Position numbers and translations under genes: made by a program. Source: Candidatus Hodarchaeota archaeon (lineage in GTDB: Archaea > Asgardarchaeota > Heimdallarchaeia > Hodarchaeales > YT1-039). From it: DNA of 7,844 bases. The stretch's first letter is position 1, and each line of letters starts with the position of its first letter. Shown piece after piece: positions 260 to 7,844 of the stretch. The stretch lies in NCBI GenBank assembly GCA_016840025.1, contig JAEOTF010000434.1, forward strand, positions 1-7,844, written 5' to 3'. The notes under the pieces are model-generated. The model saw only the letters and a list, made by a program, of their open reading frames with translations. It did no database searches and was not told where the DNA came from.

Positions 260-1423
260 GTGTTCCTAACAAGCTGTCGCTTCCATAGCGCAATATGGAT
301 TCTTTTCCTTTTAGATCGAGGACTCAGCTTCAGTGAGATAACAACCTTGGACGTAGCCTTCTGGAGTGTTATTATATTAGTTAGTTTTCCAGTTGGCGTC
401 CTTACAGATCGATTTGGGCGAAAAAAGGGAATAGTATTGGGAGATTTATTAATAAGTATTGGTTTACTATTGTTTGTTTTCTATCCATCCGTAATTGGGG
501 TTCTTATAGCATATTTATTTTGGGGATCCGGTATTGCTTTTATGAATGGACCAACCCAGGCATTCATTTACGACTATCTAAAAATGGAAAATCGAACTGA
601 ACAGTTTTCCTCTGTATGGCGTAATTCTATTATTCTCTCTCATTTTGCATGGGCATTTTCGAGTATGATAGGTGGTTTCATAGCAGAATATGATCTAGGA
701 TATCCTTTCTTTGTAGTGGCTGTTTTTTTTCTAGTAGCAGCTATTTTCGCGACTTCATATGACGAAAAACGTCCAGAGGAAGAAGAGACCAATTCACCAA
801 TGGAGCTTTTTCAAGAAGCTGTTAATATTACTCGTAAAACCCCCAAAATTCAGATTTTTTTTGTTTTATATTCAATTATAACTTGTTTGTCATTTATTGA
901 GGTGATATTCCGAGCTCCCTATTTGAAAGATTTTGGTTTTGACGAAGGGGATATAGGAGTAATATATTTGTTCGTAATACTTCTTGGAGCCCTTGGGGCA
1001 TATGGATCTAAATCTTTATCAACAAAAATTGGCAGTGATCATATTACATTCATTCTAATAGGAGGATTACTCGGATTAAGTTTGTTCACTTTATCACAGG
1101 CATCAGAATTTTCAGCTTTAGCTTTAATTCTTATTATTAGTCTATGTCGGGGTGGTATTGCCCCATTATTTGCTAATATCCTAAATGACTGGATCCCTTC
1201 CCGCATACGAGCTTCAATGATCACCTTAGCAAGTGGATTCTCATTGAGTGTTCTTTTATTCTTAGAACCATTAAGTGGAATAATTGCAGAATCAACAAGT
1301 ATTCAAGACGCTTTTATTGTTCTTGCAACAATAAATATGATAGCTCTCCTTTTATTTTCAATGTTATGGATCAGGAGTTTAAAAAAGGCAAATAACCTGG
1401 AGATTCAGATAGAATTAACGTGA
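260..1423 (+). CDS. Major facilitator superfamily (MFS) transporter
   Basis: Integral membrane secondary transporter; the substrate cannot be told from sequence. The 387 codons give a very hydrophobic protein with about 11-12 membrane segments. MFS motif A lies between the second and third segments (residues 46-57, GVLTDRFGRKKG), and a charged cytoplasmic loop (about 166-196, rich in Glu and Lys) separates the two six-helix halves. The PTQAFIYD stretch at 98-105 is typical of a drug-efflux-like MFS subgroup common in archaea. GTG 260 is the first standard start codon, but it cuts the first helix. Codons upstream to 215 stay open and read NNLIKFYIY, which fits the missing part of helix 1. The true start may therefore be CTG 230, 12 nt after an AGGAG at 213-217, or an ATT codon. 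The gene converges on a second, truncated MFS gene. Confidence 0.88.
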   Translation: MFLTSCRFHSAIWILFLLDRGLSFSEITTLDVAFWSVIILVSFPVGVLTDRFGRKKGIVLGDLLISIGLLLFVFYPSVIGVLIAYLFWGSGIAFMNGPTQAFIYDYLKMENRTEQFSSVWRNSIILSHFAWAFSSMIGGFIAEYDLGYPFFVVAVFFLVAAIFATSYDEKRPEEEETNSPMELFQEAVNITRKTPKIQIFFVLYSIITCLSFIEVIFRAPYLKDFGFDEGDIGVIYLFVILLGALGAYGSKSLSTKIGSDHITFILIGGLLGLSLFTLSQASEFSALALILIISLCRGGIAPLFANILNDWIPSRIRASMITLASGFSLSVLLFLEPLSGIIAESTSIQDAFIVLATINMIALLLFSMLWIRSLKKANNLEIQIELT

Positions 1424-1464: not shown

Positions 1465-1507
1465 AAAAAAAAAGAGAATAACCAACACTAGTGAAGGGGT
1501 TGGTTAT
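1465..1507 (-). terminator. Hairpin plus T-tract between convergent MFS genes
   Basis: ATAACCAAC at 1478-1486 and GTTGGTTAT at 1499-1507 form a perfect 9-bp inverted repeat with a 12-nt loop. Read on the minus strand, the hairpin is followed at once by TCTC and an unbroken run of nine T (complement of 1465-1473), the layout of an intrinsic terminator. It overlaps the TAA stop (1504-1506) of the minus-strand MFS remnant and lies 54 nt past the plus-strand MFS stop. It may therefore also affect plus-strand transcripts, although there is no T-tract on that side. Confidence 0.6.
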
Positions 1508-2046
1508 CCCGTATTACTTGTTGATGAGATTCTCCTCGTATTTATCTTAGAGGAGAGATGAACGAAGGACAATGTTACAAATACCAAAGTCAATACGACG
1601 TGCATAAACGCTGCAAATGTTAGAGAGTCTATTAAGGAGAATTTCATGACATCTAAGAAGACAGTGGCAAGAAAATAGAGCAATGATCCAATTGTTGAAA
1701 TCAGTGAAATGAATGTCGCACGCTCGTCAGAGTCAAGTCTATGTTGCACAAGATCACCGAACAAAGGGTAACGAAAGCCGCGTACAAGTTGCTGACTCCA
1801 TATTGTTATAACTATGAGACTGGGAACTCTGAGGGAAATGAATGCAAATGCTGTAAGGCAGTCTATGAAGAGTATTAACGATAATAAATAAGTTTTTTTC
1901 GATTCTGTGCCGAATTTCCTGACAATCATAGATCCAATGGCAGCAATGAAGTTGAAACTAGCATAGAGTAAGCCAAAGTGAATTACATGAAAGCTGATAA
2001 AATACCTAAGACATTGTGGATTGAAACAAAAATAGGTTCTTATTGT
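1504..2046 (-). pseudogene. C-terminal half of a second MFS transporter, N-terminal half missing
   Basis: An uninterrupted minus-strand frame runs from just after a TGA (2047-2049) to TAA 1504-1506, about 180 codons. It contains roughly six hydrophobic helices, including HFGLLYASFNFIAAIGS before a positively charged RKFG loop. The segment RGFRYPLFGDLVQHRLDSDE followed by RATFISLIST is typical of the loop between helices 10 and 11 in archaeal MFS proteins. The first ATG (1927-1929) lies inside this half, so no start yields a normal protein of about 400 residues. The N-terminal half, with motif A, is not found in the 2047-4000 region. The loss may be linked to arrival of the endonuclease gene immediately upstream, but no junction signature is visible. 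Translation of the 141-residue stub from ATG 1927-1929 is possible but unlikely to be functional. Confidence 0.75.
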
Positions 2047-2085: not shown

Positions 2086-3534
2086 TTAAGTGGCAGGTTT
2101 AGGCGGATATTTATAGGCAAAGCAGGCAACAGGGCTTTCCCATCCAATGTAGTCAAAGAATTTTCGGGACGCTTCTGCACTGAATACTATTTTATAATAT
2201 TCATCCTTTTTGGGAATGATGGTCTTTCCATTTGCACACTGAACTTCGCGTGCTTTTTCTCGATATGGTTTGATACCGTTATCTCCAATTTCTGTGATCA
2301 AGAGATCACATAGTCGTTGTACGTCAGGTCGTTCAAAGTTATGTGTAGAAATCTCAACATGCCAATGGTTCGATGTTGAACATTGATATAATGATCCATC
2401 TTCCAAGTAGAGATAGAGAGCAACACGTGGCGTGATGAAGATGTCGGGGGGTAGAATTTTCATACGTGTTCTGTAAGGATATAGTTCTTTTTCTTCGGGT
2501 GTCAACTCACGATAGAATTTCTCTTCTAGTTCTTTCAATTGTATACTGTAATTAGTGGTAAGGACAGTGATAGTGGCAGTATCATTATCGTCATTGTAGA
2601 TTACCTTTTGTTCTTCTCTGATAGTGACTGAATAACCTGATGCTTCTGCAATCGGCGCAATGCAGTGTAGAAGATATTCTCTGCGTGTCCATTTTTGGAC
2701 GATCTTGTAACCAGTAGTATAAAGCCCAGATGGCATTGTACCATCAGCAGCTATGCTACCGTATAACAGTTCTCGAAATTCAAAGGTGATGGGAAAATCG
2801 TAGCGTTCAGAAAGGTTTCTCATGAAGGCAAGACGTGTACCATCTGTTATAGAGCGTGTCTCAACATTGCGTTCGAGAATGCGAAATACTGTTGACGGAG
2901 AACTATCAAAGATTTTGGCTATGTCGTATGTGGAATATCCAAGGACGAGATAGTAAATGCAGACATACATCTCGTTAGGTGTGCGAGTGAGGTCTAATTT
3001 CTTAAGAGTACGAGCAATTCTCCTACGAGTAACTCTGATATCAAACTCGGTTAAGAGGTCGGAGATCTTTTGGGTTGACATTCGGAGGAAGTGGTAGAAG
3101 ACCAGCAAAAACAGTTTATTCCGCCACGGTATATCGTAGCGTTTTGGGAGATTTCTTTGGAATGCAAGTCGTCTAGCGTCTGCTGGAAGGCATAATTCAA
3201 AACCATTGCGTTCGAGAATGCGAAATACTGTTCTCTGAGAACTATCAAAGATTTTGGCTATGTCGTTTGCGGAATATCCGATGACGAGATAGTAAATGCA
3301 GACATACATCTCGTTAGGTGTGCGACTGAGATTCATCTTTTTAGCAGTACGATCGATTGTCATACCTGCAACACTGATATCAAGTTCGCTTAAGAAGTCT
3401 GCGATCTTTCGTGGTGACAGTCGGAGGAAGTGGTAGAAGACCAGCACAAACAGTTTATTCCGCCACGGTGTTGTCGTTTCCAGTGTGATTCTTCCTTGTC
3501 CTTGTTCTTTTTCATGTTGTCCGATGCGTTCCAC
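2086..3534 (-). CDS. LAGLIDADG-type homing endonuclease with duplicated N-terminal HTH modules
   Basis: Predicted freestanding site-specific DNA endonuclease of 482 residues, starting at GTG 3534. Residues 23-135 and 136-247 are two copies of one module, roughly two-thirds identical by eye, both beginning PWRNKLF. Each holds two helix-turn-helix-like stretches: one around SPRKIADFLSE, and a better one, YSANDIAKIFDSS followed by TVFRILERN, recalling resolvase or sigma-region-4 HTHs. The C-terminal part (about 250-470) has two LAGLIDADG-like motifs, LLYGSIAADG at 256-265 and VALYLYLEDG at 371-380, each ending in the Asp-Gly expected for metal-binding catalytic acids. WHVEISTHNF at 391-400 and a closing KFFDYIGWESP also resemble the LAGLIDADG_2 (PF03161-like) layout. 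Two motifs in one chain imply a monomeric nuclease. No intein splice residues or intron ends flank it. A transcriptional regulator that has lost cleavage is the main alternative. Confidence 0.72.
   Translation of the reverse strand: MERIGQHEKEQGQGRITLETTTPWRNKLFVLVFYHFLRLSPRKIADFLSELDISVAGMTIDRTAKKMNLSRTPNEMYVCIYYLVIGYSANDIAKIFDSSQRTVFRILERNGFELCLPADARRLAFQRNLPKRYDIPWRNKLFLLVFYHFLRMSTQKISDLLTEFDIRVTRRRIARTLKKLDLTRTPNEMYVCIYYLVLGYSTYDIAKIFDSSPSTVFRILERNVETRSITDGTRLAFMRNLSERYDFPITFEFRELLYGSIAADGTMPSGLYTTGYKIVQKWTRREYLLHCIAPIAEASGYSVTIREEQKVIYNDDNDTATITVLTTNYSIQLKELEEKFYRELTPEEKELYPYRTRMKILPPDIFITPRVALYLYLEDGSLYQCSTSNHWHVEISTHNFERPDVQRLCDLLITEIGDNGIKPYREKAREVQCANGKTIIPKKDEYYKIVFSAEASRKFFDYIGWESPVACFAYKYPPKPAT
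2794..3468 (-). repeat. Tandem duplication inside the endonuclease gene
   Basis: Segments 3130-3468 and 2794-3129 are direct repeats of about 336-339 bp that code for the two HTH modules. Long near-identical blocks are visible in the DNA, for example gtttattccgccacgg at both module starts and catctcgttaggtgtgcga in both centres. Divergence is concentrated in the first HTH and the linker. The second copy is one codon shorter between ERN and RYD. High nucleotide identity across much of the unit points to an internal duplication rather than independent acquisition. Confidence 0.85.
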
Positions 3535-3575
3535 CTTAATCCACTCTAGGAGTGTTTGATGAGTTTTAAGCGCTT

Positions 3576-3585
3576 GATATATAAG
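3576..3585 (-). promoter_or_regulatory. TATA box for the endonuclease gene
   Basis: On the minus strand the sequence reads CTTATATATC, a good archaeal TATA element, about 42 nt before GTG 3534. With the usual spacing of about 25 nt, transcription would start near 3551-3556 and leave a short leader. No clear Shine-Dalgarno precedes the GTG. The frame stays open upstream to 3606 with no ATG, GTG or TTG, so GTG 3534 is the best start. Confidence 0.5.
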
Positions 3586-3765
3586 ACCTTGAAAATAAGT
3601 AATTTAAGGCATATTTTAGTCCCAAAACATCAATAGTAAAAAATGATGCTTGGGCTTTATTTCGAAAACAAAAAAGATTCTCCGCGCGATATCGAAAAAA
3701 GAAGGGTGGAGAAAAGAAAATATGTTAAAAATGAAATAAGTCCATAAGATGAAGAATTGATGGAA

Positions 3766-4017
3766 TTAAAGCGGTGGTGCGGTAAGTTCTGCCTTAATCA
3801 TTTCATCATTCAGTTGGAAAAGGGCGTAAGGTGTAAATTTTCTATTTGTATCTATGAGTCTATGATCTGATGTTGAAACTAGACTTGTATGATAACAAGA
3901 TCTAAAGCATTGATTACCAATAAGCAACGGAGGTAGCTTGTGGAAGTTAAGGAGAAATTATATTGCTTCTTTTGCTTGAAATTCCTCAAAAAGTCGGAGA
4001 TTGTGATAAATTAACTT
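3766..4017 (-). pseudogene. Unrecognised protein remnant with one in-frame stop
   Basis: On the minus strand, 3957-3766 is open and ends with TAA 3766-3768. It reads like real protein: LNFHKLPPLLIGNQ, then TSLVSTSDHRLIDTNRKF, TPYALFQLNDEMIKAEL and TAPPL. Directly upstream in the same frame, past a TAA at 3958-3960, the sequence continues as NLRLFEEFQAKEAI up to another stop at 4018-4020. A single CAA-to-TAA type change would explain the interruption. No start codon with a ribosome site is visible, so this looks like the decayed C-terminal part of a gene. I do not recognise the family. The gap between this remnant and the endonuclease gene (3535-3765) shows only the TATA box above and AT-rich sequence. 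Confidence 0.5.
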
Positions 4018-4064
4018 TTAAATTTGGAATTATAACCTTAAAACATCCTAATTGGCGTTCTTTC

Positions 4065-4203
4065 GTAAACTTATTCATCTAAAAAGTTAATTCCACCAAT
4101 CTATGATTAACTTATTGTTTTAGAAACTTGGATGATTAGCTTTTCATTTTAGAAAGTTGCCCTTACAACTGGAATGATTAACTTATCTATCTAAAAAGTC
4201 GAA
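4065..4203 (+). repeat. Degenerate short repeats, four copies
   Basis: Four related units can be aligned, with consensus approximately GATTAACTTATNNATCTARAAAGTTG. They begin near 4065, 4105, 4134 and 4176, with spacings of 40, 29 and 42 nt. Within units, AACTT at the left and AAGTT at the right form weak dyads (clearest in the first copy). A related CTCAAAAAGTCGGA occurs at about 3985-3998, inside the coding remnant. Spacers differ in length and sequence and the units are imperfect, so this is not a CRISPR array. Possible roles are protein-binding sites, an attachment region or simple AT-rich drift. The rest of 4018-4356 is AT-rich and I see no gene in it. Confidence 0.45.
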
Positions 4204-4356
4204 TGGATTTTAGTTTAGTTATTGGTTGTGTTTTTTAATAATATTGCAATTATGTGGCATTAAAGATGAGTTCATCACCCAATTAAGTTTGATTAACGTT
4301 AATAGTAGTTTCAAGAAAAAGGATAGATTAAATGCCCATTCAGAAAAGCTAAGAAT

Positions 4357-4365
4357 CTATAAAAG
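4357..4365 (+). promoter_or_regulatory. TATA box before the short glycosylase-like gene
   Basis: CTATAAAAG is a near-ideal archaeal TATA element, 44 nt upstream of ATG 4401. Transcription would start around 4385-4390, giving a very short leader. A GAGAG at 4390-4394 could serve as a weak ribosome site. This promoter may also drive the secreted-protein gene downstream. Confidence 0.55.
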
Positions 4366-4400
4366 ACTTAACTTAAACTGAATATGTTTGAGAGATTAAA

Positions 4401-4631
4401 ATGCAGCATAATGACATCGTGAAATTCATTAATAGCCAGATAATTGAACTATGGTCAGAATATACTATAAAACAGGTTCTCCCAACAAAATATTTTCCCT
4501 TTTCATATAATAGTGTTAAAAAAGCCCCTCTAGTCGTTTTAGGGCTGAATCCGCTTAGGGACAACAGGTTTAAATCATTTTTTCCTTTAATGTTTAACAA
4601 TACCCTCTCGAAGATATCAACGGGAAATTGA
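4401..4631 (+). CDS. Short protein resembling the N-terminus of a uracil-DNA-glycosylase-like enzyme, probably truncated
   Basis: Seventy-six residues starting at ATG 4401. Residues 1-53 look like the start of a uracil-DNA glycosylase superfamily protein: an amphipathic helical lead, LPTKYFPFSY, then KKAPLVVLGLNPLRD. The last resembles the first beta strand plus the GxNP-type catalytic loop found in several glycosylase families. Members of that superfamily are usually about 200 residues, so the core and the His-containing C-terminal motif are missing. The last 20 residues (FKSFFPLMFNN onward) look like non-native read-through to a stop. It could be a dead fragment that keeps its promoter, or a genuine small protein; I favour the fragment. 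The family call rests on one short motif and is tentative. The next gene begins 26 nt after the stop. Confidence 0.45.
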   Translation: MQHNDIVKFINSQIIELWSEYTIKQVLPTKYFPFSYNSVKKAPLVVLGLNPLRDNRFKSFFPLMFNNTLSKISTGN

Positions 4632-4657
4632 GTGGGAGGGGATAATGAGATGAGAAT

Positions 4658-5242
4658 TTGAGAAAAAAGATTAATTTAATGCTAATTATATTAGTTCTAG
4701 GAGGTATAAATCTAGTTTATCTAGCAAACGCGACTCCAACAGCCACTACTTCGGATACCTATGGTGACAGTGGAACTGCTGGAACAGATATTCGAGATAT
4801 AACGACCTCTGAAAATCAAGTAGTGGCTACCTTTGATGATACAACCAATGCGGGGTTATATGTTTATGTTCTCTTTTGTGATTATGATGGCGGAGGAACG
4901 TCGGATACTAATGTCTTTCCTTCTGAGGGGTATGGCACGACTACACTGACATGGGATATATCCACACAAGTTAGTGCAGATGGAAGCGCGCCCATGTGGA
5001 TACGAATCCAAGTAGACGATGCAGCTAGGCGCTCACCTAGAGCGGACTATGATGAGTGGCCGGATTCGGGAGAATGGTTCTCTGACTCGGATGTGTTTCC
5101 CGAATTTCCCAATGTATTTCCTTTAACTGTGTTTTCACTAATGACCGTGATTGTATTAATGGTAGGAATAAATTGCTGGAAATCACAAAGGAAAAAGGAT
5201 GAATTTTGTGACTCTTCTGGGCAGACCACACACTTTCGATAA
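4658..5242 (+). CDS. Small secreted acidic protein with signal peptide and C-terminal membrane anchor
   Basis: Predicted cell-surface protein of 194 residues. A basic RKK and a hydrophobic stretch (about 6-21) end in LANA, a good Sec signal peptide with cleavage near residue 25. The exported part (26-150) is rich in Asp, Ser, Thr and Gly, with beta-type patches (LYVYVLFCDYD, TTTLTWDI, PMWIRIQVD), suggesting a small beta-sandwich-like domain. FPEFPNVFPLTVFS leads into a membrane helix (about 153-172), followed by a positive SQRKK stop-transfer and a short cytoplasmic tail. The start is TTG 4658: the two nearby ATGs (4645, 4650) are out of frame and closed quickly, and ATG 4679 would lose the basic n-region. 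GGGAGGGG at 4634-4641 is a strong but distant ribosome site. The domain is not one I recognise. It is followed by the decayed anchor of another surface protein. Confidence 0.75.
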   Translation: MRKKINLMLIILVLGGINLVYLANATPTATTSDTYGDSGTAGTDIRDITTSENQVVATFDDTTNAGLYVYVLFCDYDGGGTSDTNVFPSEGYGTTTLTWDISTQVSADGSAPMWIRIQVDDAARRSPRADYDEWPDSGEWFSDSDVFPEFPNVFPLTVFSLMTVIVLMVGINCWKSQRKKDEFCDSSGQTTHFR

Positions 5243-7363: not shown

Positions 7364-7844
7364 TTGATTCGAGAAGTTTTCATTTTAGAAACAAGCGGAG
7401 TTCCTCTCTTCCACCGAACGTATGTTAAAAGTGGAATTGATGATGTATTACTTTCTTCCTTTTTAAGCGCTTTAGACCAGTTTAGTAGGACAATAACGGA
7501 TGAAGAAATTGAATCGGTTCGTATGGGTAAGATACGCTTTGTTTTCTCTCGTATAAAATCTAAGCAAGTCATTTTAGTTCTGTTAGCAGATTCAAGTGAT
7601 TTTGAAGAAGAATTATCATGGAAAGTCAGTGAAGTACAAAAATCATTTTTAACTCACTTTGAGAAAAATATGGAGACCTTTGAAACCGAATTAAAGGGAA
7701 TTCTAGAAAAATCCTTAAATCTAGGGCAGGGGTTGATGATGTTGGGTGATGCACGAACATGTATTGTATTTACCTCTGTTCTAGACACAATAGTCCATGA
7801 ACTAGCAAATGCTACGTCCTCTGCGAAGGTAGCAACAGAGGTAT
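7364..7844 (+). CDS. Longin-like domain protein (3' end outside window)
   Basis: The first 160 codons of a protein starting at TTG 7364; the frame is closed upstream by TGA 7355-7357 and no ATG fits. Residues 1-104 show a longin-type order. Two strands come first (IREVFILETSGVPLFHRTY, 2-20), then a helix (IDDVLLSSFLSALDQFSRTI, 25-44), three strands (KIRFVFSRIKSKQVILVLLAD, 56-76) and an amphipathic helix (EEELSWKVSEVQKSFLTHFE, 81-100). Longin domains in eukaryotes serve SNAREs, adaptors and GTPase-regulating complexes; Asgard archaea encode many small versions. A further helical and strand region (106-160) may begin a second domain. The role is likely as a partner of small GTPases at membranes, but that is inference from the fold. 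AAGG at 7349-7352 is a modest ribosome site. The fold call is from secondary-structure pattern, so a related roadblock-type fold cannot be excluded. Confidence 0.68.
   Translation, partial: MIREVFILETSGVPLFHRTYVKSGIDDVLLSSFLSALDQFSRTITDEEIESVRMGKIRFVFSRIKSKQVILVLLADSSDFEEELSWKVSEVQKSFLTHFEKNMETFETELKGILEKSLNLGQGLMMLGDARTCIVFTSVLDTIVHELANATSSAKVATEV

Follow-up and report, generated by a model that had tools for sequence, protein, structure and literature searches.

The window analysed here, the whole stretch of 7,844 nucleotides, comprises positions 1 to 7,844 of contig JAEOTF010000434.1 of a Candidatus Hodarchaeota archaeon (assembly GCA_016840025.1). Its minus strand carries a frame of 482 codons at 2086–3534, uninterrupted and with no internal stop in the open reading frame (ORF) listing, and the encoded protein combines two tandem N-terminal modules bearing predicted helix-turn-helix (HTH) motifs with a LAGLIDADG_2 nuclease domain. 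Similarity to its closest relative, P0002, starts at ORF residue 8 and agrees with the assigned N-terminus. The features of the gene are as follows.

2086–3534, minus strand: ORF of the probable two-module LAGLIDADG_2 homing endonuclease, 482 amino acids (aa), GTG start
3127–3465, minus strand: module 1, residues 24–136, internal repeat of 113 aa
3331–3447, minus strand: HTH-A of module 1, about residues 30–68, weak (IS6-transposase stretch, 22.5 bits, cut-off 125)
3205–3285, minus strand: HTH-B of module 1, residues 84–110, presumed second stretch of HTH_7, HTH_23 and HTH_38 (sub-cut-off matches at 80–111)
2791–3126, minus strand: module 2, residues 137–248, tandem copy of module 1, 112 aa
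2944–3078, minus strand: HTH-A of module 2, residues 153–197 (Arg_repressor, 28.7 bits, cut-off 27)
2866–2949, minus strand: HTH-B of module 2, residues 196–223 (HTH_7 199–221, HTH_23 196–223, HTH_38 199–223)
2089–2790, minus strand: LAGLIDADG_2 nuclease domain, residues 249–482 (Pfam, PHROGs and fold comparison)
2740–2769, minus strand: LAGLIDADG motif 1, LLYGSIAADG, residues 256–265, with D264 aligned with I-SceI D44
2458–2460, minus strand: K359, aligned with I-SceI K122
2395–2424, minus strand: LAGLIDADG motif 2, VALYLYLEDG, residues 371–380, with D379 aligned with I-SceI D145

We searched the whole protein against the Pfam (20 families listed at E ≤ 1), NCBIfam and PHROGs profiles. LAGLIDADG_2 (PF03161) matched residues 254–414 with 29.5 bits (cut-off 25), enclosing both motifs that had been picked out from the sequence alone, and phrog_11023, described as 'homing endonuclease with LAGLIDADG motif', covered residues 250–478 (E 2.6e-11), which supports the proposed nature of the C-terminal part; NCBIfam gave nothing above its cut-off. 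The predicted structure of the nuclease domain adopts the LAGLIDADG fold, and its top structural neighbours are I-SceI and I-WcaI (15–16% identity in the fold alignment). Like these PF03161 enzymes, the domain is a single-chain nuclease with two LAGLIDADG motifs, and its residues D264, D379 and K359 align with D44, D145 and K122 of I-SceI, of which we take D44 and D145 to be catalytic. D264 is conserved in the relatives P0002 and P0003, and D379 and K359 are invariant across the seven-sequence alignment A5. Unlike the window protein, I-SceI and I-WcaI are intron-borne and are not known to have an N-terminal HTH module. Profiles, aligned active-site residues and fold comparison together uphold the identification as a homing endonuclease. 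A sequence search of the PDB with the window protein (P0001) alone returned a single match, 2okl, at E 0.14.

The two modules are identical at 77 of the 112 residues and 275 of the 336 bases that align. Their BLASTP score is 152 bits, compared with a maximum of 24.3 bits among 1000 shuffles of module 2, 273 of which gave any match; the 113-residue unit repeated twice, as the sequence-only reading had described it, is thus real, with copies of 113 and 112 aa. At the DNA level, an ungapped repeat of 266 nt with 87% identity (2865–3130 and 3204–3469, offset 339 bases) is accompanied by a second pair of 55 nt with 73% identity. When divergence is polarised with P0002 as the sole outgroup, 13 differences are specific to module 2, 11 of them at unit positions 16–47 in HTH-A, and six to module 1; both modules differ from P0002 at 23 sites, all three sequences differ at 16 and all agree at 54. 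Identity between the copies is 62% in HTH-A and 87.5% in HTH-B. Such a pattern is consistent with duplication of a DNA-binding module and ongoing change in the first HTH of one of the copies.

HTH_7, HTH_23 and HTH_38 each match two stretches and exceed their Pfam cut-offs when the protein is scored as a whole. The search places only the best stretch (196–223, module 2), and we assigned the second to the module 1 copy, where a weaker match to PF01710 covers residues 80–111 (19 bits, cut-off 21.3). The Arg_repressor match is a narrow pass and is confined to module 2. The four HTHs originally claimed can accordingly be divided: the HTH-B pair is well supported, whereas the HTH-A pair is plausible. 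We also compared the HTH pieces with phage HTHs by Smith-Waterman alignment, with 1000 shuffles per comparison. Against the HTH of Acinetobacter phage KEN_01, no shuffle was as good as HTH-B of module 1 and one was as good as HTH-B of module 2; the likeness of HTH-B to the HTH of the IMG/VR enzyme P0005 was unconvincing (50 and 104 shuffles as good), and HTH-A was unlike the phage HTHs in all four comparisons (489, 917, 488 and 785).

Single-sequence and profile searches over 5.8 billion proteins, the latter scoring 7995 candidates that shared most words, found three relatives besides the window protein itself, P0002, P0003 and P0004, with 62–65% identity and long invariant blocks in the nuclease. 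P0002 (561 aa, on a 98-kb NCBI contig) is identical at 220 of 354 residues across module 2 and the nuclease; compared with the window protein, it has one module instead of two before the nuclease and about 190 extra residues at its front. The proposed search for homologues with one or two modules thus yielded a single-module enzyme as the closest relative. The front of P0002 (residues 1–190) precedes the module and might have arisen by fusion, in frame, with a gene of the host; its approximately 190 residues had no Pfam match, and PDB matches were at E 1.6 and 2. The N-terminus of P0003 lies near the end of HTH-B, possibly merely through start-site prediction. P0004 begins within the nuclease, and its record is frameshifted, because its first 32 residues match a different reading frame of the window nuclease (41.6 bits, compared with a maximum of 24.3 in shuffles). 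A stand-alone search with residues 1–136 gave two word-sharing candidates, neither at E ≤ 0.01, so neither an HTH-only source nor the N-terminal pieces of P0003 and P0004 were found.

Scans of genome contigs with A1 and with the glycosyltransferase matched 47 and 17 stretches, respectively, and a scan of viral contigs with A1 matched 90, none of them a relative. With A2, the viral contigs yielded two loci at 27% identity, L003 and L004, which carry an identical 270-aa ORF. The phage search returned four Bacillus records (25% identity, E 0.01), and the plasmid search returned nothing at E ≤ 1.

For comparison of architecture, we assembled nine different LAGLIDADG_2 proteins from phages and from viruses of archaea (phiNIT1, IMG/VR L003, HVTV-1, VOLN27B, HGTV-1, HRTV-7, Acinetobacter phage KEN_01, Bacillus phage BpSp and HCTV-5), a set drawn from tblastn and pattern matches rather than at random; one tblastn search gave 24 records, of which five were opened. 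Left out were L004, whose ORF is the same as that of L003; L007 and L010, with nothing beyond short HTH proteins of 96 and 90 aa; L013, an uncultured phage with a tblastn match over P0005 residues 1–181 but no 120-aa ORF there; L008 and L009; and the other records of that tblastn search. None of the nine shows the two-module build. Two (L003 and KEN_01) have a single N-terminal HTH, both below the Pfam cut-offs, and two (HGTV-1 and HRTV-7) have, by eye, a short Cys/His-rich, zinc-finger-like front; neither kind of front is visible in the other five, although those of VOLN27B and HCTV-5 may be cut, because the tblastn match extends past the annotated start. The phage enzymes P0005 (270 aa) and KEN_01 (236 aa; Acinetobacter phage vB_Ab_01_KEN_01) resemble the window protein in having an HTH immediately before LAGLIDADG_2 and in being separate genes, that of KEN_01 adjoining a DnaB-like helicase, but they hold one HTH within about 50 aa, without HTH-A or duplication. 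Among 14 control genomes, LAGLIDADG_2 is present in two, Methanocaldococcus jannaschii and Haloferax volcanii. By eye, the haloviral LAGLIDADG_2 enzymes at L016 1087–1725 and L017 1099–1740 have a short, Cys/His-rich, zinc-finger-like N-terminus, and at L003 4197–5618 the ORF preceding the HTH-LAGLIDADG enzyme has at its end a stretch like an HTH, similar to that of the enzyme itself.

Tethered DNA-binding modules are described for phage homing enzymes (PMC3943268), and an Asgard mobile element carries a homing-endonuclease-like gene (PMC8813620). In the rRNA genes of the Candidate Phyla Radiation, LAGLIDADG proteins are mostly single-domain and those with LAGLIDADG_2 are mostly about 210 aa long (PMC11270868). 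Like the window protein, the T5orf172 (GIY-YIG) homing endonucleases of ICP1 and other phages often carry several DNA-binding domains beside the nuclease, but the nuclease fold differs and the repeats are zinc fingers instead of HTHs; multiple zinc-finger domains, and a deletion of 228 bp between internal repeats that keeps the frame, are reported for these genes (PMC10448857). Our searches of the open-access literature on LAGLIDADG, HTH, freestanding and Asgard homing endonucleases brought up no report of the present architecture among the papers listed. The build is only partly exceptional: phage enzymes with a single N-terminal HTH before LAGLIDADG_2 are known, the closest relative P0002 has one module, and for a different class of homing nuclease, T5orf172, repetition of the DNA-binding domains in front has been published (PMC10448857). 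The novelty is a modest one, the tandem copy of an HTH-bearing front on a known design.

Two further features adjoin the gene.

1504–2046, minus strand: likely C-terminal remnant of a major facilitator superfamily (MFS) transporter, directly downstream (MFS_1; frame open from 2046, ATG-started part 1504–1929)
3577–3584, minus strand: TATA-like string upstream of the ORF (one occurrence, 0.82 expected by chance)

The MFS remnant matches profile positions 264–346 of 347 of MFS_1 at 16.4 bits, short of the 33.4-bit cut-off; it is weakly similar to the neighbouring MFS protein (BLASTP, E 0.007), whose full-length gene at 260–1423 (plus strand) adjoins it, and has no PDB match. As the MFS piece begins where the endonuclease ORF ends, we considered insertion of the endonuclease into an MFS gene, which is unproven: by eye, no N-terminal half appears in the six frames of 3535–4660, where no similarity search was made. 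Upstream, 3535–4372 holds no ORF of at least 60 aa, so that the gene remnants said to surround the endonuclease are likely on the downstream side and were not found in this upstream stretch. That gene-poor stretch contains AT-rich degenerate repeats at 4068–4205 (ATGATTAACTTAT..., AACTTAT..TCTAAAAAGT); an open frame of 76 aa at 4401–4631 (plus strand), which matches no Pfam family at E ≤ 1, is possibly the beginning of a disrupted gene. Farther away, 7364–7843 (plus strand) encodes a protein resembling Fuz_longin_1, a eukaryote-like domain (24.8 bits, cut-off 26.1), and this resemblance would suit an Asgard host. The claim that the gene has its own TATA box finds no support, as shuffled sequences contain the TATA-like string 0.82 times on average and at least once in 116 of 200 cases. 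The promoter scan (10, compared with 10.4 in shuffles) and the terminator scan (1, compared with 1.6) showed no excess either.

Taken together, the gene probably encodes a freestanding homing endonuclease in which a duplicated N-terminal HTH-bearing module precedes a single-chain LAGLIDADG_2 domain. The domain would cleave DNA in the manner of I-SceI: D264 and D379 would lie at the two metal sites, and K359 would assist. The N-terminal HTH-bearing module would tether the enzyme to DNA next to the cut site. Tandem duplication of the module may have come after divergence from the nearest relative known, and the two copies would now be drifting apart, mainly in the HTH-A of the inner one. A longer or altered recognition region would be the likely consequence, and the internal repeats could allow one module to be lost or changed by recombination. 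Several observations weigh against this account. HTH-A is weakly supported in the modules, and Foldseek alone found no PDB match at E ≤ 0.001, I-SceI being the best at 9.9e-3. The structure model used is of moderate quality (predicted local distance difference test, pLDDT, 58.6; predicted template modelling score 0.57). Structure prediction, proposed earlier as a check, gave a nuclease model that resembles I-SceI and I-WcaI and a poor full-length model from four sequences (pLDDT 41.6), the latter left out of the fold search. The contrast in composition with the neighbours is not clean, because the MFS remnant, the fifth neighbour, has a GC content at third codon positions of 0.394. Furthermore, the ratio of nonsynonymous to synonymous substitution rates (dN/dS) between the modules (0.62, 0.72 and 0.82 by three methods) could reflect relaxed selection.

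This ratio, not far from neutral, is also what a recently dead homing endonuclease might show, its frame still open yet decaying and the duplication neutral on the way to loss, and the frameshifted P0004 and the shortened P0003 (possibly a matter of start-site prediction only) would agree with such decay. We consider this unlikely, however, since 482 codons are open, the active-site residues are retained, and identity to the relatives is 62–65% with the invariant nuclease blocks described above. The retained residues also count against a domesticated LAGLIDADG DNA-binding regulator similar to WhiA, in which modules and scaffold would bind without cutting; this is quite improbable. WhiA is degenerate at the LAGLIDADG catalytic residues, whereas the window protein keeps both catalytic aspartates and the lysine. 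The 20 Pfam families listed at E ≤ 1 include no WhiA family, and close relatives are few, with one of three frameshifted, unlike a conserved regulator. WhiA is alike in that a single protein unites LAGLIDADG and HTH parts (PMC11701221, PMC3781837).

An intron-borne enzyme, RNA maturase or intein, instead of a freestanding gene, is very improbable. The closest phage match is indeed flanked on both sides by a piece annotated as DNA polymerase and is labelled a putative RNA maturase in three of four records, but in the 7844 bases of the window Rfam gave no family at its gathering score and there was no tRNA (archaeal bulge-helix-bulge introns were not searched for). The Pfam matches at E ≤ 1 (20 families) include no splicing (Hint) or intein domain, and no two halves of one gene are visible by eye around the ORF. 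These results fit the freestanding state that had been proposed.

Beyond the duplicated-module endonuclease favoured here, a bipartite enzyme might be imagined, whose target preference shifts through module gain, loss or recombination and whose two HTH pairs, with different HTH-A recognition helices, let one chain grip an extended site or bind at another one, such as its own promoter, so that homing and self-repression would be combined in one protein. We regard this version as doubtful, though the putative extended target is in itself a reasonable idea.

In LAGLIDADG enzymes a single surface serves both recognition and cutting, which makes it difficult to redirect them to new targets. A natural member that carries part of its recognition on an N-terminal module open to duplication would demonstrate target change by module duplication in this class, as reported for T5orf172 enzymes (PMC10448857). 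The window protein and the one-module P0002 form a natural pair for the study of module duplication.
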